From: Bacteroidales bacterium
Lineage (GTDB): Bacteria > Bacteroidota > Bacteroidia > Bacteroidales > Marinilabiliaceae
Direction: 5' to 3'
Assembly (NCBI GenBank): GCA_024401335.1
Contig: JAKSLH010000010.1
Location: 27,000 to 90,999 of the forward strand
DNA length: 64,000 nucleotides
Shown: positions 29,348 through 63,572 of the stretch, piece after piece
Layout of the letters: every line of letters begins with the position of its first letter
Numbering within the stretch: the stretch's first letter is position 1
Made by a program: the position numbers and the translations under genes
The notes under the pieces: model-generated
What the model saw: the letters and a program-made list of their open reading frames with translations, nothing else
Databases searched by the model: none
Told to the model about the DNA's origin: nothing

Positions 29348-30340
29348 CTAAGGCACCTCAACCTGATTGAGTATTTCGCTTATTATCTCGTCGCTAGTCA
29401 CATTGTTTGCTTCAGCTTCGTAAGTCAATCCGATACGGTGACGGAGCACGTCGTGACAAACAGCACGAACATCTTCTGGTATCACATATCCTCTTCTCTT
29501 GATGAAAGCGTAAGCCTTAGCCGCCATAGAGAGACTGATTGACGCACGAGGTGACGCACCGCATGATATCATCTCTACGAAACGATCGAGCTTATACTGC
29601 TCTGGATAACGAGTAGCGAAGACTATATCTACAATATACTTCTCAATCTTCTCGTCCATATAGACATCCTTCACAACATCTCGTGCTCTTACGATATCTT
29701 CTGGCTTCAACAGCTTGCTTGGCTGTGGGAACTGCTTGAGAAGGTTGTTTCTGATAATGAGCTGCTCCTCTTCCTTCTTAGGGTAGTCAATGATAACCTT
29801 AAGCATAAAACGGTCAACCTGAGCCTCTGGCAGAGGATAAGTACCCTCCTGCTCAATAGGGTTCTGTGTAGCCATAACCAAGAAAGGCTTTGCCATCTTA
29901 TAAGTCTGGTCACCGATTGTCACCTGACGCTCCTGCATAGCTTCGAGCAATGCGCTCTGCACCTTAGCTGGAGCACGGTTGATCTCATCCGCCAAAATAA
30001 AGTTAGAGAAGATAGGGCCCTTCTTTACGACAAACTCTTCAGTCTTCTGGCTGTATATGAGCGTACCAAGGATATCTGCTGGGAGAAGGTCTGGCGTAAA
30101 CTGAATACGTGCAAAATCTGCATCAACAATCTTGGCAAGTGTATTAATAGCAAGTGTCTTGGCCAAACCCGGAACGCCTTCCAACAATATGTGTCCATCT
30201 GAAAGAAGACCGATAAGCAAACTCTCTACAAGATGCTTCTGACCAACAATAACCTTATTCATCTCCATAGAGATAAGGTCAACAAACGAACTCTCCTGCT
30301 TTATGCGTTCATTGAGTTCTTTAATTTCATTTGCGTCCAT
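29348..30340 (-). CDS. moxR: MoxR-family AAA+ ATPase
   Basis: The 330-aa ATPase opens the Bat operon. Walker A is GVPGLAKT, Walker B ILADEINRA, sensor 1 ATQNPIEQEGTYPLPEAQ, and the arginine finger lies in AQVDRF. MoxR proteins work as chaperones for VWA-containing partners, here most likely BatA, BatB and the DUF58 protein. The mRNA leader carries a stable hairpin (30362-30381) and a -7 box lies at 30419-30426. Confidence 0.95.
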   Translation of the reverse strand: MDANEIKELNERIKQESSFVDLISMEMNKVIVGQKHLVESLLIGLLSDGHILLEGVPGLAKTLAINTLAKIVDADFARIQFTPDLLPADILGTLIYSQKTEEFVVKKGPIFSNFILADEINRAPAKVQSALLEAMQERQVTIGDQTYKMAKPFLVMATQNPIEQEGTYPLPEAQVDRFMLKVIIDYPKKEEEQLIIRNNLLKQFPQPSKLLKPEDIVRARDVVKDVYMDEKIEKYIVDIVFATRYPEQYKLDRFVEMISCGASPRASISLSMAAKAYAFIKRRGYVIPEDVRAVCHDVLRHRIGLTYEAEANNVTSDEIISEILNQVEVP

Positions 30341-57004: not shown

Positions 57005-57042
57005 GTGATAGAGTTTTGAAGATTAGTAGTTGATTATTGGCG

Positions 57043-57050
57043 CAAATATC
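57043..57050 (-). promoter_or_regulatory. possible -7 box (GATATTTG) for the TonB-dependent receptor
   Basis: GATATTTG on the minus strand differs at one position from TAnnTTTG, 39 bases before the ATG. Confidence 0.4.
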
Positions 57051-57420
57051 TGCAATGGTTTTGTAGACAAGAAGAAGCTTATCGCCCTTCTGCTCTATTT
57101 CTACACATAAACGAACAAAAAAGTTTCAAATTTAAGAATCATAAAATCAGGAATAAATACTAATTAATGCATGGATGATTTATGAAGGATCTTTTGAACG
57201 CTGCCGTAATAGCACGAATCAATGTGAATAGGACGAATCTGACGAATGACGTTTTTTTGTTTTGGGATATTTTGAACAGATTGCTAAGTTGATGAGGGGG
57301 ACAGAAGATCGTAGATATTGATATATAGAAATTTAGGAACGAGTATAGCCATAATTTCTAAATGGGAAATGGACACAAATCAATCCATTCAGTTCCTTTT
57401 TTTTGAACATTTACTAAAAA
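57051..57420. other. intergenic region without genes
   Basis: No coding-like frame is seen. The part near 57360-57400 contains short repeats of GGAA/GGAC and their inverse (GTTCC), related to the conserved element at 57421. Confidence 0.5.
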
Positions 57421-57438
57421 GGAATAAAATGGAACAAA
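57417..57438 (+). promoter_or_regulatory. conserved element copy A upstream of the OmpA/TerB cluster
   Basis: AAAA followed by GGAATAAAATGGAACAAA, which recurs as AAAA-GGAATGAAATGGAACAAA at 63726-63747. In both places it lies 37-38 bases upstream of the -7 box, over the -33 region, so an operator or activator site is likely. Confidence 0.6.
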
Positions 57439-57458
57439 ATGTCTAAAAAATTTGTTAA

Positions 57459-57466
57459 TATATTTG
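57459..57466 (+). promoter_or_regulatory. -7 box (TATATTTG) of the OmpA/TerB cluster
   Basis: TATATTTG matches TAnnTTTG; transcription from about 57473 would give a 100-base leader ahead of the ATG at 57574. Confidence 0.65.
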
Positions 57467-57573
57467 TATCAGCAACACAGGAGAAGAAGAGGCTGTGAAA
57501 ACGATTACGCGAGTAGCAAGCTGAAACTTACATATTAGTAGAGATATAAATTATTTAACACTAACTAAAAGAG

Positions 57574-58554
57574 ATGGCAGAGGTTATTGGGAAAGTCCGC
57601 GTACACGGCAAGGCACAGAACCGAACAGTACTAGGCATAGTAAATGCGTATCTTGTGATGTATCCTCAGACGACAGCAGAGGATATCACGAAGGCATTTC
57701 CGCTTCAGTTGGCTAAGAAATATTCAAAGCTCGCAGAGAAGCAGCAGGCTGGTGATTCATACTGGAAATATGGTCTTTTTCATGAAATAATAAATAAGGG
57801 AGGCAAGCGTGTCTGGGCTCACAATGACGAAGAGGTAACAGCAAACTCATTCCTCTTTGAGCAGGAAGATGAGACCATACACACGGCAGATGGCAAGGAA
57901 CTTGCGATGGAATCGGCATGGCCAGAGGATGCATTCAATGAGATGATAGCCTGGGCAAAGCAGTATGGCATAGAGGTAGCCAGCTTTGAAAAGGCAGAAG
58001 GCGGTGCAGTGAAAGGCGGATTCCGCTTGGAATATCTCAATGGATATGTGCCACCTGTAGCAGAGAAGAAGTCGAACAAAGGATTGATAATAGCAATCGT
58101 AGCACTTCTTTTGTTGGGCATAGGACTCTTGCTATGGTCGCTCTTGGGCAGCAAGAAAGAGGTTGTAGTAGAGAAGGAAGTTGTGGTGCACGACACAGTA
58201 GTTGTTGAGGTCATCAAAGAGATAAAGAACATAGAGAAGAACTTCAACGCAGCAAAGTTTGTGCAGGGCAAGGCAGACTTGACCGAAGAGACCAAGTTTG
58301 TGCTCCACGACCTTGAGACATTGCTGAAGCAGAATCCACAGTTGAAGCTCAAGCTCGTTGGCCACACATCGTCAGAGGGAGATGCTAAGTTTAATCAGAA
58401 GCTCTCTGAGTCACGTGCAAAGGCCGCAGTAGATTTCCTTATTTCGCGAGGAGTGGAAGCAGACCGCTTGCAGTATGAAGGCAAGGGAAGCTCGGAGCAG
58501 ATAAGCGACAATCAGGAAGAGAACCGAAGAACAGAGTTCGTTGTAATCGAATAA
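57574..58554 (+). CDS. inner-membrane protein: unknown cytosolic domain fused to OmpA domain
   Basis: The 326-aa protein has an N-terminal domain (about 1-155) without signal peptide, starting with a helical VLGIVNAYLVMYPQTTAEDITKAFP segment and ending with FEQEDETIHTADGKELAME and AWAKQYGIEVASF; this pattern looks like a small sensory or winged-helix-like domain seen in several Bacteroidetes proteins, but I cannot name it. A transmembrane helix lies at 170-191, then a Val-rich spacer, and an OmpA peptidoglycan-binding domain at 225-326. In the latter GHTD is GHTSSEG, so the usual Asp is Ser266, while Arg281 in SESRAKAA is kept. It leads the six-gene cluster. Confidence 0.75.
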   Translation: MAEVIGKVRVHGKAQNRTVLGIVNAYLVMYPQTTAEDITKAFPLQLAKKYSKLAEKQQAGDSYWKYGLFHEIINKGGKRVWAHNDEEVTANSFLFEQEDETIHTADGKELAMESAWPEDAFNEMIAWAKQYGIEVASFEKAEGGAVKGGFRLEYLNGYVPPVAEKKSNKGLIIAIVALLLLGIGLLLWSLLGSKKEVVVEKEVVVHDTVVVEVIKEIKNIEKNFNAAKFVQGKADLTEETKFVLHDLETLLKQNPQLKLKLVGHTSSEGDAKFNQKLSESRAKAAVDFLISRGVEADRLQYEGKGSSEQISDNQEENRRTEFVVIE

Positions 58555-58590
58555 TCAATCAGAAAAAAGTATTCGCAAGTAGGATAGAGA

Positions 58591-58606
58591 ATGCCTGAAA
58601 AGGCAT
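58591..58606 (+). promoter_or_regulatory. intercistronic hairpin
   Basis: ATGCCT and AGGCAT form a perfect 6-bp stem around a GAAA tetraloop, between the OmpA-fusion gene and the small basic gene. There is no T tract, so RNA processing or stability is more likely than termination. Confidence 0.45.
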
Positions 58607-58646
58607 CCTCGGACCTGCCGCATGTTAAATCAAAATAAAAAGAAAT

Positions 58647-58781
58647 ATGGCAGTTAAAAAGACAGCATCGGGCAAGGTGGACAAGCGCACCAAGGAAGGC
58701 AAGGAGATTGCAGCACGCATGGCAAAGGCACGTGCAGAGAAGAACAGCCTAAAGAACCGCTTGAAGAGATTATTTTCATAA
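58647..58781 (+). CDS. 44-aa strongly basic peptide
   Basis: A short frame with ATG at 58647 and TAA at 58779-58781: opens MAVKKTASGKVDKRTKEG and ends LKNRLKRLFS. About 15 of 44 residues are Lys or Arg and the middle is likely an amphipathic helix. It has no signal peptide. It resembles short histone-H1-like or ribosome-associated peptides by composition. It fits tightly between two cluster genes (15 bases to the next), which is the main reason to believe it is translated. No homologue is recognised. Confidence 0.55.
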   Translation: MAVKKTASGKVDKRTKEGKEIAARMAKARAEKNSLKNRLKRLFS

Positions 58782-58796
58782 CCATTAAATCGAAGA

Positions 58797-59210
58797 ATGA
58801 TGAAGACAAACGTAAAAGATATAGCTGCAATATTAGCTACAGCCATTTATGCAGACGGCGTATTTGACGAGGCGGAAGAGATAGCGCTCGGCGAGATTCA
58901 GGAAGCTCTCGAACTCAATAAGGATGAGTTTGAGGCAGCGATGAACGAAGCCATTGAAAACGTGGACAAGCTAGATGAAGAGGCAGCAACGGAATTCCTG
59001 CAGAATGCGGCCGCAGCAGTGGCTGACGACGAAATAGGTCCGATGTTTGAGGCAGCACTTCAGCTTGTGCTTGCAGACGGAATAATCAAGAGAGATGAAG
59101 TAGCGACCCTGCTCGTTATCTCAGACGCTCTTGGAATTGAGGATGCAGACGCAGTGTTGCTTATAGCAGACTTCGTAAAGGAAGAGGCAGACGTGACAGT
59201 TGAAATCTAA
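58797..59210 (+). CDS. TerB-like protein with two copies of the motif
   Basis: The 137-aa acidic helical protein shows the TerB pattern twice: YADGVFDEAEEIALGEIQ (residues 18-35) and LADGIIKRDEVATLLVIS (near 90-107), each an (A)DG-x(5)-E turn that binds divalent metal in known TerB. Two ATGs lie three bases apart at the start. TerB domains occur in tellurite and phage-resistance-like stress systems at the membrane. Here it follows the basic peptide by 15 bases and precedes the paralogue series. Confidence 0.72.
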   Translation: MMKTNVKDIAAILATAIYADGVFDEAEEIALGEIQEALELNKDEFEAAMNEAIENVDKLDEEAATEFLQNAAAAVADDEIGPMFEAALQLVLADGIIKRDEVATLLVISDALGIEDADAVLLIADFVKEEADVTVEI

Positions 59211-59226
59211 CAAACACTCTACGACT

Positions 59227-59805
59227 ATGGCAGCAAGAGTTATTAAGAAATCCACATCAAAAACGACCACGAGCTCAAAACTCAAGCTCACTCGTAAGCC
59301 TGCTACTATGGCACGTGTGGTATCGAAGGCAAAAGCAGCGCCAGCCGCAAAGCCTGCACACAAGATAGTAAGAGTCGAAAATCCTAATGGCATAACAGTC
59401 AACGGAAACAAGATAATGAAGACACTTCAGAGAGAGTTTTCGAAGAAGTTTAATTATCTGACATTATGCTTCATTGTTGACGCAGATCGTGAGAAATGCG
59501 TTAACGTAAGAGGCATAGACACAAACAAGCGATTGTCGGAAGTAAGAAAGAAAATGTCAACAGCAGAGATTTCTATTCATGGCAGAGTCAAGGTATCAAA
59601 CATCGAAAATTACTTCTGGAAAGAGCTTGGCATTGCCTGTCAGATAGGAATATGTAACTACAACGGACATTCACACTATTTCCCTATAGGTAGTTCGTTT
59701 AACGGCATGACACTGAGCCAGGCAAATGAGCAGGCAAAATCATGGGGATGCAAAACTGTTGGAGCAACAGAACTGGACCAAATATGTAAAGGAAATATAT
59801 TCTAA
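59227..59805 (+). CDS. unknown protein, paralogue 1 of a three-member family with basic tail
   Basis: The ATG at 59227 is chosen; an upstream TTG at 59200 would overlap the TerB gene. The 192-aa product has a Lys/Thr/Ala-rich basic N-terminus (about 50 residues) and then the shared domain: NGNKIMKTLQREFSKKF, then LSEVRKKMSTAEISIHGRVKVSN and KELGIACQIGI. The same layout (GNK-x-LQxEF ... V-NFE-x-EFGIKVQVA) occurs in the next two genes. It ends with a 25-residue extension not found in the others. No fold or function is recognised. Confidence 0.65.
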   Translation: MAARVIKKSTSKTTTSSKLKLTRKPATMARVVSKAKAAPAAKPAHKIVRVENPNGITVNGNKIMKTLQREFSKKFNYLTLCFIVDADREKCVNVRGIDTNKRLSEVRKKMSTAEISIHGRVKVSNIENYFWKELGIACQIGICNYNGHSHYFPIGSSFNGMTLSQANEQAKSWGCKTVGATELDQICKGNIF

Positions 59806-59819
59806 AAAAAATAAAGATT

Positions 59820-60131
59820 ATGGCAGAATTAAGCATTTCTCCAGCAATGCAGGTAGCAAAGCTGCAGAAGGATTTCAAAAGAGCATACGGTGCTTCACTA
59901 AGAGTGTACAAGGGCCAGCATTTTGCAGACAAGACAATGAGACTTTGCGAACTCTCGGAGTCGGCAAAGGGCACTATGATCTGCAAGCGAGGCCTGACAG
60001 TTGAGGCATTCGAGAAGGCATTTGTAGAGAAGTTTGGCGTAAAGGTGCAAGTGGCTACACCAGACAACTCGGCTCTCTCAAAGAACACCGATTCGCTCGT
60101 GGCTGCTGGCAAGGTGGCTCAGAAAGCATAA
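59820..60131 (+). CDS. unknown small protein, paralogue 2
   Basis: The 103-aa protein contains KLQKDFKRAYGASLRVYKG, FADKTMRLCELSESAKG and VEAFEKAFVEKFGVKVQVATPD, aligned with paralogues 1 and 3. It is cytosolic by appearance (no signal peptide). It begins 15 bases after paralogue 1. Confidence 0.65.
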   Translation: MAELSISPAMQVAKLQKDFKRAYGASLRVYKGQHFADKTMRLCELSESAKGTMICKRGLTVEAFEKAFVEKFGVKVQVATPDNSALSKNTDSLVAAGKVAQKA

Positions 60132-60134
60132 CGC

Positions 60135-60217
60135 AATAACGCAATAACACAATAACAAACAAAAATATTAACCAGAACGAGTCGGAAAAAAAGACGAGTT
60201 CACAAAACATTACAACT
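60135..60217 (+). repeat. short direct repeats between paralogues 2 and 3
   Basis: Several copies of an 8-9 base unit (CGCAATAA / ACAATAAC) and a direct ACGAGT repeat fill the gap between the two genes. No coding frame. Confidence 0.4.
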
Positions 60218-60526
60218 ATGGCAGATATTTCATTCACAGGCAACAAGAAGGTAAAGAGCATCCAGAAGGAATTTAAGGAGGCTTACGGCGCAACACTCCG
60301 CATCTACAACGGTGCCCGCTTTGCAGATCCAGACGCAACACTTGCATCACTTCGTGCAGAAGGCAAGAAGGGCGGTGAAGTGAAGATCAACGGCAACAAG
60401 AAGGTTGGTAACTTCGAGAAGGAAGTACTTGACGAGTTCGGCATCAAGGTACAGGTAGCTAAGCCAGACGACAGCGGCTTGTCAAGCAACGACATCACAA
60501 TCTCTGCTGCTGGCAAGGAGAAGTAA
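60218..60526 (+). CDS. unknown small protein, paralogue 3
   Basis: The 102-aa protein carries the family pattern most clearly: GNKKVKSIQKEFKEAYGATL, FADPDATLASLRAEGKKGG, KKVGNFEKEVLDEFGIKVQ and the ending SSNDITISAAGK. It is the last gene before the terminator. By eye it is closest to paralogue 2. Confidence 0.65.
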   Translation: MADISFTGNKKVKSIQKEFKEAYGATLRIYNGARFADPDATLASLRAEGKKGGEVKINGNKKVGNFEKEVLDEFGIKVQVAKPDDSGLSSNDITISAAGKEK

Positions 60527-60552
60527 GAGAAAGAAACAACTCATTAGCATGA

Positions 60553-60592
60553 TGAGGGTATAACATGAGGTTATGTCCTCACCGTTTTTTAT
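60553..60592 (+). terminator. strong Rho-independent terminator of the six-gene cluster
   Basis: TGAGGGTATAAC and GTTATGTCCTCA pair over 12 bp with two wobbles and a 5-base loop, followed by CCG and TTTTTT. It separates the cluster from the TerB-like fragment. Confidence 0.88.
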
Positions 60593-60606: not shown

Positions 60607-60898
60607 ATGGAGCACATAACGGAAGAAGAAAAGGATTTGGCTTTTTGGGGTAGTTTCCGAATAGTATTTGCTGATGGCAAAGTAACCCCCAAAAGAGCTT
60701 CAGCGTCTTCATGCTTATTGTGACTTGTTCGGATGGGAGGCTGCTTATGCGACATTGAAGTTCCTTCAATTGTCGAAGAAAGTTGACAATCTCAAGATTG
60801 AAGGACTTGATTTTAGCTATAAACAAGAGTGGTTTTTGTGTCACTCTTTTTTTGATTTTATTATAAAATGGTTAGTAAGGAAAATAGAGTTTTCGTAG
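60607..60898 (+). pseudogene. frame-disrupted TerB-like gene
   Basis: From ATG 60607 the frame reads MEHITEEEKDLAFWGSFRIV and FADGKVTPK, then leaves TerB-like sequence at the run CCCCC-AAAA (60686-60694). Skipping one base there restores ELQRLHAYCDLFGWE and a further 60 residues to TAG at 60896-60898, giving a ~96-aa TerB-like protein. The ADGKVTPKEL core is a typical TerB turn. A one-base insertion, a base-call error in the homopolymer, or +1 ribosomal slippage are all possible. Its end overlaps the nuclease start by 31 bases. Confidence 0.65.
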
Positions 60899-61818
60899 AT
60901 TTTAAACTCGACTATATGGCACGATTCTTTCAGAAGATATGCCATAAGAAGTTTGAGTCGTATGTAATTCAGCGTATTTGGCACAGGTTAAACGATGACC
61001 GTGTGCAGTTTGTTTTTCAACAGGAAGTAGTCCGAGATAATGGCATCGCATTGCTTGATCTATATTTGCCACAGGTGCAAATGTCGATTGAAGTGAATGA
61101 GGCATATCACGAAGATTATGAACAGACACTACGTGACGAAGCGCGCAATACTGAGGTAATGCAAAAGATTGGTGTCAAGCCCATGGTGGTAAGATGCGCG
61201 CAGAAGATAGAGGATGTGCATGCACAGATAGAAACTGTTGTCGAAGAGATAAAGCATAGAGTTTGTCAACTTGAAAAAGAACATTCATTTATAGCTTGGA
61301 CAGGCGACGAAGAAATGAAACCTAAACACTATCAAGATGTTGGATACTTAGAAGCAAGACCTTACAATGGTTATGTAAAGACCATCGACGATGCCTTTGC
61401 GATTTTTGAAGCCAAGGCTAAGCATAAGGGTTTCCTGCGTGTGGGTGGGGCCGATATACCAAATCGAAAAGGATGGATAGTTTGGTGTCCAAATTCTGAC
61501 AATGGTAAATGGCATAATGTGATGTCAGAAGACGGAAGTGTGATACTTGAGTATCCAAAGGCTGAACGTGGAACGAAAAGTTCCGATGGCGATATGCCGC
61601 AGGTTGATCATCAAGCGGCTATCGATCATCTAAAAGATCATAAGACAAAACAACAGACAAGAGTGACATTCTTCAAGGAAAAGGACGCACTTGGTTTTAA
61701 CTTTTATCGTTTTGTTGGAGTATTTAAACTTGACGAGAAAAAGAGTGATGCTGCAGGGCATTGTATTTGGACCAAAATAAGCGATAGATATGATTTGAAG
61801 AAGGGTGAGATAAAATAA
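60868..61818 (+). CDS. probable modification-dependent restriction nuclease (AbaSI/PvuRts1I-like)
   Basis: The 316-aa protein has two parts. The N-terminal ~130 residues carry FESYVIQRIWHRLND, VFQQEVV and LLDLYLPQVQMSIEVNEAYH: Asp64, Glu75 and Asn77/Glu78 fit a PD-(D/E)xK-type active site, and the whole stretch resembles the nuclease domain of AbaSI and PvuRts1I. The C-terminal ~150 residues (TRVTFFKEKDALGFNFYRFVGVFKLD) look like their SRA-like reader of modified cytosine. Known members cut DNA with 5-hydroxymethyl- or glucosylated cytosine, as in T-even phages. The assignment rests on remembered family pattern, not a search. No methylase is adjacent, as expected for a type IV enzyme. Confidence 0.6.
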   Translation: MVSKENRVFVDFKLDYMARFFQKICHKKFESYVIQRIWHRLNDDRVQFVFQQEVVRDNGIALLDLYLPQVQMSIEVNEAYHEDYEQTLRDEARNTEVMQKIGVKPMVVRCAQKIEDVHAQIETVVEEIKHRVCQLEKEHSFIAWTGDEEMKPKHYQDVGYLEARPYNGYVKTIDDAFAIFEAKAKHKGFLRVGGADIPNRKGWIVWCPNSDNGKWHNVMSEDGSVILEYPKAERGTKSSDGDMPQVDHQAAIDHLKDHKTKQQTRVTFFKEKDALGFNFYRFVGVFKLDEKKSDAAGHCIWTKISDRYDLKKGEIK

Positions 61819-61969: not shown

Positions 61970-63421
61970 TTAGCAGAACAGGTCATCTAATGTCAGTTCT
62001 TTTTGAATACACGATGAGTATTCGTTCTTTTCTATACCCTTTGTGGTAATCATAGTAACTATTACACTTTTGTCAGTTCCCGTAACTTCTATAAGAGTGT
62101 TGACTTTGCGTTCAATATCTTCTTCGTCCTTGGCAGTCAGTGCGTATGGCTTGTTGTAATACTTCATCTCACACACGTTGATAGTCTTGTCTGCACGGTC
62201 AATCAGCATGTCTATCTGAGCTTTACGGTTTTCTCCCTTTCCGAACCAGGAGAAGATGTTTGTTGCAATTCCAGAAATGCCTAGTGCTTTTTTTATTTGC
62301 TCGATGTGGTTGAGGCAGAGCATTTCGAAAGAGAGACCACACCATATATTGTGTGATGGGGAGTTCTGGTTGTTTGTCCAATAATTGGCATCATGAGCCG
62401 AAGCCTTACGCATTACCTGGAAATAGAATAGTGTAAATGGATCGACGAGTTGATATAATGAATCTGAGCTTTGTCGATCGTTTGACCTTGTTCTATTAAG
62501 ATTGGTCGAGAATGGTTCGTAGCAACGAATAAAACCACAACTATTCAGTTCTTCCAATAGCGTTGAAAACTTGCCATTGTCTGCAATCTTAGTTTTAGCG
62601 ATAATTTCCTGTCTTGTAAGCCCCATTCCTTTGCTGGCCAATGCTGTAACAACCTTGATGTGGTTCGAGGCACTCTTGTAGAGTGAATTGTACAGACTTT
62701 GAAATTCATCATGCAGTTCTCCATCGTCAGCAAAAAGTAATCGGTCAATGTTTTGCGCCACACTTTCACTCTTCACCATCTTCGACATGTAATACGGCAC
62801 TCCTCCCAATACCATATAACATTCTGCAATCTGCATGGCAGAGTATCGGAATCCAAGAGCAGAGAAATATGCCTGACATTCGCCTAACGAGAAAGGCTTC
62901 AGAGGTATCTTGTGAGTTACTCGGTTGTGCAATCCGCCCCGGTTTTTAATCAGATTGTTGATGATCCAGGAGGTTGCACTGCCGCAAACAATCAGTTTGA
63001 TATCATTACGCCATGAAGCCCATGAGTTCCAGAAATGTTCGAGACCACTGATAAAGTTCGAACGTGGAGTGTCCATCCAAGGCATTTCATCAATAAAGAT
63101 AATCTTTCGGCCTTCAGGGAGTGACTCAAGATAGTTTTCAAGTGCAAAGAATGCCTCAAGCCAAGTATTTACAGTCGAAACGTTGCCTCCTTGGCGGCGA
63201 ATGCCTTCCATAAAGTTGGACAACTGCATGCGCATAGTTACCTTGTTCATGCCAGCTACGTAGAAAGCATAATCGTCACCGACGACCTGCTGTATCAAGT
63301 AAGTTTTACCTACACGTCGTCTGCCATAAATAGCGATGAACTCAGATTGTTCAGAATTCAGGTAGTCATTTAACAACTTTTGTTCTTTCTCTCGGCCTAT
63401 AAAAAACTTTTTGTTTGCCAT
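61970..63421 (-). CDS. AAA ATPase with DUF234-type C-terminal domain
   Basis: The start at 63421 (MANKKFFIGREKEQ) is chosen because upstream codons do not belong to the family. The 483-aa protein has an N-terminal STAND-like ATPase: Walker A GRRRVGKT (33-40), Walker B KIIFIDEMPW, and a winged-helix-like middle domain (MGLTRQEIIAKTKIADNGKFS). The C-terminal part matches the DUF234 nuclease-like domain, with EMKYYNKPYALTAKDEE resembling an E-x-K core. Members are common in Bacteroidetes, often several per genome; their role is unclear, possibly defence or toxin-like. It converges on the nuclease gene. Confidence 0.8.
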   Translation of the reverse strand: MANKKFFIGREKEQKLLNDYLNSEQSEFIAIYGRRRVGKTYLIQQVVGDDYAFYVAGMNKVTMRMQLSNFMEGIRRQGGNVSTVNTWLEAFFALENYLESLPEGRKIIFIDEMPWMDTPRSNFISGLEHFWNSWASWRNDIKLIVCGSATSWIINNLIKNRGGLHNRVTHKIPLKPFSLGECQAYFSALGFRYSAMQIAECYMVLGGVPYYMSKMVKSESVAQNIDRLLFADDGELHDEFQSLYNSLYKSASNHIKVVTALASKGMGLTRQEIIAKTKIADNGKFSTLLEELNSCGFIRCYEPFSTNLNRTRSNDRQSSDSLYQLVDPFTLFYFQVMRKASAHDANYWTNNQNSPSHNIWCGLSFEMLCLNHIEQIKKALGISGIATNIFSWFGKGENRKAQIDMLIDRADKTINVCEMKYYNKPYALTAKDEEDIERKVNTLIEVTGTDKSVIVTMITTKGIEKNEYSSCIQKELTLDDLFC

Positions 63422-63572
63422 TATTGAACTATAATTGATGGCGCAAAGATATGTTTTTGGACTAGAAAAACAATATATATTGCACGAAAACGGTCGCAAA
63501 GGGGGTGATTTTAATACATTAGCGACCTGTTTCGTGCATTGTGCGATAGAAACAGCGCACTAACAAGCCGTT

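Follow-up and report, generated by a model that had tools for sequence, protein, structure and literature searches.

Do six closely packed genes in a Bacteroidales genome form a system of their own, and what might such a system do? This question was raised by a locus within a window of 64,000 nucleotides (the whole stretch of DNA that was analysed). We found that the six genes belong to a recurring, reshuffling gene cluster, of which the window holds a small form. The gene system is apparently undescribed so far, and a search of open-licence literature with a few word combinations returned no description of this gene set.

Gene layout and protein architecture

The original prediction placed six tightly spaced genes between one promoter and one strong terminator. 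The genes were borne out as six closely packed ORFs on the + strand, spanning 57574–60526 (g1–g6, with g4 checked in-frame), and the locus is laid out as follows:

57459..57466, + strand: candidate promoter element, a weak TAnnTTTG box (motif search of the window)
57574..58554, + strand: g1, anchor protein of 326 aa with an N-terminal conserved domain, one transmembrane (TM) segment and a C-terminal OmpA domain
58647..58781, + strand: g2, basic peptide of 44 aa, pI 11.2
58797..59210, + strand: g3, TerB-family protein of 137 aa, pI 4.1
59227..59805, + strand: g4, 192 aa, basic tail (1–52) and g6-type domain (54–169)
59820..60131, + strand: g5, g6-type protein of 103 aa
60218..60526, + strand: g6, 102 aa, two ~50-aa repeats
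60553..60590, + strand: intrinsic-terminator-like stem of 12 pairs (stem itself 60553–60581) and T run

A promoter box is indeed present at 57459; however, since the window's + strand carries 20 copies of the TAnnTTTG motif, which we take to be the Bacteroidales -7 box, this box is weak and not significant alone. Similarly, the 60553–60581 stem has the most pairs among eight terminator-like sites in a 6-kb stretch (both strands), but shuffles of this stretch also give 4.5 ± 2.2 sites, and thus the terminator is suggestive rather than strong. The g4 start is most likely ATG 59227, not TTG 59200. Purifying selection acts on g1, g2, g3 and g6, with dN/dS values of 0.009–0.137 against the nearest relative (g4 is saturated and g5 is missing from the relative); the value of 0.009 for g2, against its nearest relative L059, comes from only 44 codons with dS >1.5.

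The architecture predicted for g1 holds. A conserved N-terminal domain (about residues 1–161) is followed by a single strong hydrophobic segment (about residues 166–194) and by an OmpA domain (PF00691, residues 229–319, E 5e-17), whose overall match places it within that family. The N-terminal domain had no match in Pfam, and its best match among PDB sequences was no better than E 0.24. In A. baumannii OmpA, D271 and R286 contact diaminopimelate (PMC6572160). The g1 counterparts, as read from pairwise alignments, are Ser 266 and Arg 281. Like OmpA/Pal domains, g1 thus has the family match, the conserved Arg (40/40 family members) and an NxxLSxxRA stretch, whereas the Asp of the GHTD motif is replaced by Ser in 40/40 members. 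Because this is the peptidoglycan-contacting Asp, wall binding is not assured, and of the proposed link from cytosol to wall it is the membrane association, via the TM segment and OmpA domain, that is supported.

The match of g3 to PF05099 (E 1.3e-8, 35.6 bits vs a cut-off of 24.4) places it in the TerB family as one stretch (residues 9–119, model positions 4–113 of 118), and it therefore has a single TerB-family domain and not the double TerB first proposed. The three last genes had been described as copies of one fold. By sequence they are indeed paralogues of one family: a g6 query retrieved g5 (E 2.6e-19; 47% identity) and g4 (E 0.024) in the window genome, and window g6 matched a sister-species g4-type protein at 1e-10. 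However, g4 is no plain copy, since it has an extra tail of ~52 aa rich in Lys, Ala and Thr (14 K/R and 1 D/E in residues 1–52), presumably histone-H1-like. The g6 domain is internally duplicated (half-vs-half profile comparison, P 1.2e-7, probability 91%) and gave no convincing match to Pfam or PDB sequences in profile comparisons. As to a ubiquitin-like fold, 1/61 members touched the ubiquitin model (E 0.041), and this reading was set aside.

Distribution, fusions and surroundings of related loci

A search with the N-terminal half of g1 yielded 140 relatives, of which 80 were kept (Bacteroidota titles, nearly all Bacteroidales); together with the window these give 81 loci, in which contig ends affect presence calls. 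The g4/g5/g6 family was found in 72/81 loci, g4-type proteins in 22 (window counted) and the TerB family in 47; the family of the 44-aa basic peptide, which was called correctly from the outset, is likewise present in 47. On the tree of 82 g1 rows, 18 changes are required for TerB and 18 for the basic peptide; a fixed six-gene order is not conserved, and the conservation that was anticipated extends to the gene set and to the sub-order g1–basic–TerB–g6 (19/81 loci). The TerB protein and basic peptide are gained or lost jointly, changing the same way in about 11.7 of 14 independent pairs on the g1 tree (0 opposite, 2.3 undecided, median p 5e-4), and they have opposite charges (pI 4.05–4.17 in 47 TerB ORFs vs 10.7–12.0 in 53 basic-peptide ORFs).

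At the genome level the distribution is patchy, with g6 in 2/71 genomes of the family and 21/393 of the order (window genome counted). Assuming, as we infer, that both searches covered the same 393 genomes, the g1 N-domain occurs in 19, and 12 genomes are in common vs about 1 expected; at the cut-offs used, the N-domain is missing from 9/21 g6 genomes and g6 from 7/19 N-domain genomes. Distant g6 relatives outside the order came from seven genomes (L152–L158), with neighbours that by eye are mostly universal stress, CBS, metal-ATPase or oxidase-like genes (none at L156). A genome outside the class encodes an N-domain-TM protein without OmpA one gene away from a g6 gene, and five stand-alone g1-like anchors (L187–L191) lie among genes of housekeeping look (by eye). 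Further N-domain relatives occur on an HSDR_N/DUF4357-type protein (HSDR_N match below cut-off), on a small protein adjoining methylase- and DUF262-like genes and, weakly, on 1/8 KAP NTPases.

Some g6 domains stand by themselves, and others are joined to a histone-like basic tail, to LRR proteins, to a PD-(D/E)XK protein or to the anchor. Fusions to g1 number 8 ORFs for g6 (7 N-terminal, 1 C-terminal) and 12 for r126, a second module without a convincing Pfam match, and several LRR proteins in related loci carry one module or the other. Either is also found on 2/15 PD-(D/E)XK ORFs (L108, L090) and 4/15 ORFs of an HhH-like family, leaving 13 and 11 without it (24/30 combined); the HhH-like and HTH-like labels were given by eye, the HhH-like family having no Pfam match. 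Copies within a locus had a mean rank fraction of kinship of 0.27 over 7 cases for g6 (best in only 1/7; p 0.001 in a test that counts related loci as independent) and 0.51 over 3 cases for r126.

Larger versions of the cluster add a kinase, ion channels, pyroglutamyl peptidase, KAP NTPase (8/81 loci) or nucleases, and other cargo includes GIY-YIG, outer-membrane, lipoprotein and peptidase proteins. Neighbour-cluster labels agreed with Pfam-named representatives for kinase (46/46), channel (43/43), pyroglutamyl peptidase (25/25), KAP (8/8) and DUF4230a (12/13), while neighbour cluster 8 was re-sorted by iterated sequence search because clustering had mixed architectures. In the window cluster, kinase, channel and nuclease fusion are all missing, and no module is fused to g1. 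In the window genome (84.6% complete), the kinase match was limited to 86 aa (33%), and the sister-species ion channel had no match at E 1e-10; across 15 genomes this channel was fully matched only in G065 itself, with partial matches of 26–29% in four others.

Flanking families (90/264 scanned) have a mostly ordinary chromosome look, with 5 AAA_14, 3 DUF4143, 2 Fic and 1 RhuM matches among the 90. The gene after the cluster encodes a PvuRts1I-like modification-dependent nuclease (mREase_II E 3.5e-74). In none of three relatives does the neighbouring TonB-receptor-like gene keep the surroundings it has here, and DNA similarity ends at 57008–57169, so a simple insertion site for the window cluster is not demonstrable. 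Elsewhere, a MoxR-like gene (by eye) lies at 29348–30340, 27 kb from the cluster. Neither g6 nor the g1 N-domain turned up in searches of phages, plasmids and viral contigs, which is neutral to the model below.

A proposed docking model and its rivals

We tentatively read the six genes as the minimal version of a Bacteroidales system for stress or conflict, tethered to the envelope and coupled through adaptors, with confidence a little short of even. Here g1 would sit in the inner membrane, its OmpA domain periplasmic and its conserved N-domain cytosolic, and would sense the envelope. The g6-type domain would be a non-enzymatic docking module, with g5 and g6 as free copies and g4 as a docking copy whose histone-like tail could hold it on DNA. 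The g6 or r126 modules would bind each other, effectors would be recruited by docking, and the acidic TerB protein and basic peptide may work together, plausibly as a switch responding to metal or stress; the outcome would be that the cell is protected or shut down when stressed or invaded. In favour of this docking model we count the presence of the g6 family in most g1 loci and the excess of genomes with both; the fusions of g6 or r126 to g1, PD-(D/E)XK, HhH-like and LRR proteins; the joint changes, opposite charges and low dN/dS values; the N-domain relatives on an HSDR_N/DUF4357-type protein, next to methylase- and DUF262-like genes and, weakly, on a KAP NTPase; and the outside-class N-domain-TM protein near g6. 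Against it we count the absence of an adaptor from most nuclease-type ORFs, the genomes with only g6 or only the N-domain, the solitary anchors, the lack of kinase, channel or nuclease fusion in the window, the ordinary flanks, and adaptor copies that are not clearly closest kin within a locus.

Judged by gene content, a stress or defence role would be compatible with the nucleases, KAP NTPases and ion channels of larger versions. A purely anti-phage or anti-plasmid system, in which g1 would detect phage attacking the envelope and nucleases and ion channels, brought in by adaptors, would then kill either invader or cell, seems to us possible but unlikely. The patchy presence of g6, the high gene turnover on the g1 tree and the adjoining nuclease would fit, as would the PADLOC matches of a KAP NTPase representative to the PifA model (7.7e-32) and candidate defence families, and of a PD-(D/E)XK protein to PDC-S26 (3.8e-11). 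However, core proteins match PADLOC models only weakly (g1 ZorB 6.4e-5, TerB PDC-S48 4.1e-6, g5 CARF 0.015), the flanks are unlike defence islands despite the matches listed above, defence systems do not usually carry outer-membrane, lipoprotein or peptidase cargo, and the nuclease sits past the terminator-like site and in no recurrent neighbour family. We give similarly low credence to a general envelope or metal stress response with no anti-invader role, in which TerB would be a metal sensor, g1 a wall sensor and the g6-type proteins scaffold or nucleoid proteins induced by stress: the TerB membership of g3 and the stress-type genes near most of L152–L158 point that way, while cargo of nuclease, GIY-YIG and KAP types, and gene content that turns over strongly, would be unusual in a housekeeping stress regulon. 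A chance neighbourhood of unrelated small genes is disfavoured and very improbable; flexible order and some solitary homologues speak for it, and the 72/81 co-occurrence and linked gain or loss of TerB and basic peptide speak against it.

The docking model could also be taken further, albeit doubtfully, to an undescribed signalling platform in which a wall-tethered g1 hub, g6/r126 adaptors in higher-order complexes docking interchangeable effectors, and a TerB–basic peptide gate would form a Gram-negative parallel to adaptor signalling of the death-domain type, running from envelope to DNA. The locus makes a modular system found in gut and rumen Bacteroidales open to testing, and searches of Pfam gave no convincing match for its core domains (g1 N-terminal, g6, r126). 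Were the docking model right, adaptor-coupled conflict systems would extend to an envelope-anchored hub without known ATPase cores, and the TerB protein would be one half of a pair with the basic peptide.

Comparison with known systems

Like Zorya, the cluster has a membrane protein with an OmpA/MotB-like domain, although the ZorB match is limited to g1 residues 261–321 (the OmpA part), g1 has a large conserved N-terminal domain, and no ZorA partner was matched among the seven proteins scanned. With Ter systems it shares a TerB-family protein, here paired, unlike there, with a basic peptide; no TerC/TerD-type gene was matched among the six genes, the next gene or scanned neighbour representatives. 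Compared with PifA/KAP exclusion proteins, the KAP NTPase is an accessory and not core, and is missing from the window cluster.

The closest parallel may lie with effector-associated domains (EADs). Kaur et al. 2020 (PMC7159879) describe such coupling for the conflict systems built on MoxR-vWA/VMAP, iSTAND or GAP1, and report TM-OmpA effectors in iSTAND systems. MoxR, vWA, VMAP, iSTAND and GAP1 were not found among the six genes or scanned neighbour representatives, the kinase of larger versions touches TCAD9 below cut-off (1.5e-4), and g6 and r126 differ from EADs at the level of Pfam matching, where neither had a convincing hit. In related loci g6 or r126 is carried, as EADs would be, both by g1 and by PD-(D/E)XK, HhH-like and LRR proteins. 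By analogy, then, and with other core proteins, the cluster would resemble the EAD principle as set out there: a small non-enzymatic module on a core protein, together with diverse neighbouring effectors.

Architecture of the cluster

The six ORFs studied here, g1 to g6, and the next gene are arranged in the window as follows:

57574-60526, + strand: six-gene cluster (g1-g6)
g1: 326 aa, conserved N-terminal domain (g1N), hydrophobic segment near 166-194 and OmpA domain at 229-319
g2: 44-aa basic peptide
g3: one TerB-family domain (PF05099; one match spans the model)
60868-61818: PvuRts1I-like, SRA-carrying modification-dependent nuclease (restriction type), nuclease part N-terminal, 3' of a terminator-like stem

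The original prediction of an OmpA anchor with one membrane helix for g1 agrees with this layout, and sequence searches upheld g4, g5 and g6 as paralogues; the "double TerB" assigned to g3 proved to be one domain. Of the two signals said to bracket the genes, the case for the promoter is weak, whereas a stem at 60553 makes a plausible terminator-like site, and we treated the nuclease beyond it as a neighbour of the cluster, not a member. By composition, g4 carries an extra tail rich in Lys/Ala/Thr, which we take to resemble histone H1. Synonymous divergence from the sister species is 0.41 (dS) for g6 (60218-60526) and far higher, about 1.6, for g1-g3, which suggests recombination or strong codon constraint. 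An ATPase_2-type protein is encoded further downstream (61970-63499, − strand); a homologue in the sister species (L036) also adjoins a g6-type gene, and the surroundings of the two share almost the same sequence over 42 and 58 bases.

Within the OmpA domain, Arg 281 and an NxxLSxxRA stretch are each conserved in 40/40 family members, and alignment to solved OmpA-family domains placed Ser at the Asp of the GHTD motif, again in 40/40. Since work on Acinetobacter baumannii OmpA reports both Asp and Arg as critical for diaminopimelate binding (PMC6572160), wall binding by g1 may be altered.

Distribution and turnover of gene content

With each GTDB species represented by a single genome, the g1N search yielded 195 candidate stretches and 140 relatives, of which 80 were kept (81 loci with the window). 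All 80 carry titles that point to Bacteroidales, to a group inside it, or to Bacteroidia/Bacteroidetes. Metagenome assemblies predominate, with animal guts as the source of many, and two of the records are from Porphyromonas uenonis. Only 37 of the 81 loci reach at least 17 kb, with many truncated at the end of a contig. The g1N, g6, TerB and basic peptide families are all present in 37/81 loci and g1N with g6 only in 30, followed by basic-g1N-TerB (7), g1N-g6-TerB (3), basic-g1N-g6 (2), g1N alone (1) and basic-g1N (1), so that g6-family genes occur in 72/81. The predicted conservation of gene order held in part, as the sub-order g1-basic-TerB-g6, in 19/81 loci (skipping minus-strand ORFs and unassigned ORFs <100 aa, with repeated copies collapsed). 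In the nearest relative (L059, g1 82% identical) the layout is kinase-g1-basic-TerB-g4-g6, and g5 is absent. Distribution is patchy: with the window genome included in all counts, g6 was found in 2/71 family and 21/393 order genomes, its profile matched 9/395 phylum genomes, and g1N was found in 19/393 order genomes. Absences in the window genome are provisional, because it is 84.6% complete.

Neighbour families were obtained by clustering and their labels checked afterwards, the names resting on representatives, several judged by eye. Encoded on the same strand as g1 are an 80-aa protein, coiled-coil in appearance (45 loci), a voltage-gated-type ion channel (PF00520, 42), a pyroglutamyl peptidase (PF01470, 25), DUF4230 proteins (13 and 12), a KAP NTPase (8), and recurrent lipoprotein-like and other proteins. 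A Ser/Thr kinase (PF00069, 45 loci) and a 195-aa protein, HTH-like by eye and mostly on the opposite strand (43 loci), usually co-occur, with both in 21/37 long loci and only one in 4. One of the larger clusters includes a neighbour (L040:12819-14354) that has an SH3_3 domain and a weak, below-cut-off PARP-type match. A quick tree of 82 g1 rows required 18 changes each for the presence of TerB and of the basic peptide, 23 for that of the kinase and 7 for fusion type. Joint changes of TerB and the peptide accounted for about 11.7 of 14 independent pairs, and opposite changes for none; the 47 ORFs of the TerB cluster all encode acidic proteins, and the 53 peptide ORFs all encode basic ones.

Shared modules and relatives of the g1 N-terminal domain

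The domain common to g4, g5 and g6 (g6 domain) consists of two ~50-aa repeats (half vs half P 1.2e-7), and no match fell below E 0.003 in Pfam (61 members) or E 0.7 among PDB sequences. Borne by 177 ORFs in the 81 loci, it is fused to g1 N-terminally in 7 and C-terminally in 1, while fusions of g1 with a second module (r126) number 12. In a sorted set, either module occurs on 2/15 PD-(D/E)XK-type and 4/15 HhH-like ORFs; other carriers are BspA-type LRR proteins and proteins with long Ala/Lys/Glu-rich stretches, probably coiled-coil by eye. These fusions mean that the membrane anchor has modules in common with other proteins, although most nuclease-type ORFs are without them. Ranked by relatedness, module copies within a locus are not clearly one another's nearest relatives: for g6 the mean rank fraction was 0.27 over 7 cases, with the top rank in only 1 (p 0.001 by a test that counts related loci as independent), and for r126 it was 0.51 over 3.

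For g1N there was no Pfam match, and among PDB sequences none matched below E 0.24. Five stand-alone g1N anchors (L187-L191) lie next to genes housekeeping-looking by eye, with the OmpA domain confirmed by Pfam in L187 and L190. The window genome itself holds one such second anchor (G000:C1:55465-55938, L187:7824-8954; 376 aa, OmpA domain); TerB, the basic peptide and g6 are all missing from its neighbourhood. In L192, a short form lacking OmpA adjoins an HTH-like protein homologue. Further relatives sit on an HSDR_N/DUF4357-type protein (L193, HSDR_N below cut-off) and on a small protein (L194) whose neighbours look methylase- and DUF262-like by eye. One of the eight KAP NTPases matches g1N at its C-terminus (E 6e-7, database of eight), a pair given only 16% probability by alignment comparison. 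Together, these relatives are a thin hint of ties to restriction-type proteins.

Defence, stress and likeness to known systems

Whether the cluster serves defence, as one branch of the original prediction had it, was weighed from its surroundings. Flanking matches include AAA_14 (5), DUF4143 (3), Fic (2), LEM-3 GIY-YIG (2) and RhuM (1); against a defence role, the flanking genes match mostly ordinary families (90/264 scanned), no integrase or transposase is among the 25 of 83 families listed, and the six proteins match PADLOC models only weakly. Neither g6 nor g1N had a match in the viral contigs, phages and plasmids searched. Distant g6 relatives outside the order (seven genomes, E 4e-7 to 6e-14; L152-L158, with two in L153) lie mostly, L156 excepted, near universal stress-, CBS-, metal-ATPase- or oxidase-like genes by eye, and this context favours a putative stress origin.

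We tentatively favour a model that is possible, if somewhat short of probable, in which a hub tethered at the envelope and used in stress or conflict would carry docking modules, these would couple interchangeable effectors, and TerB and the basic peptide would act as a switch. Since the known core proteins of effector-associated domain (EAD) systems were not found among the proteins scanned, and the relatedness of module copies within loci gave no clear signal, the cluster is not filed as a member of these. Kaur et al. 2020 (PMC7159879) also describe TM-OmpA effectors, and the proposed mechanism would work like the EAD-coupling principle outlined there.
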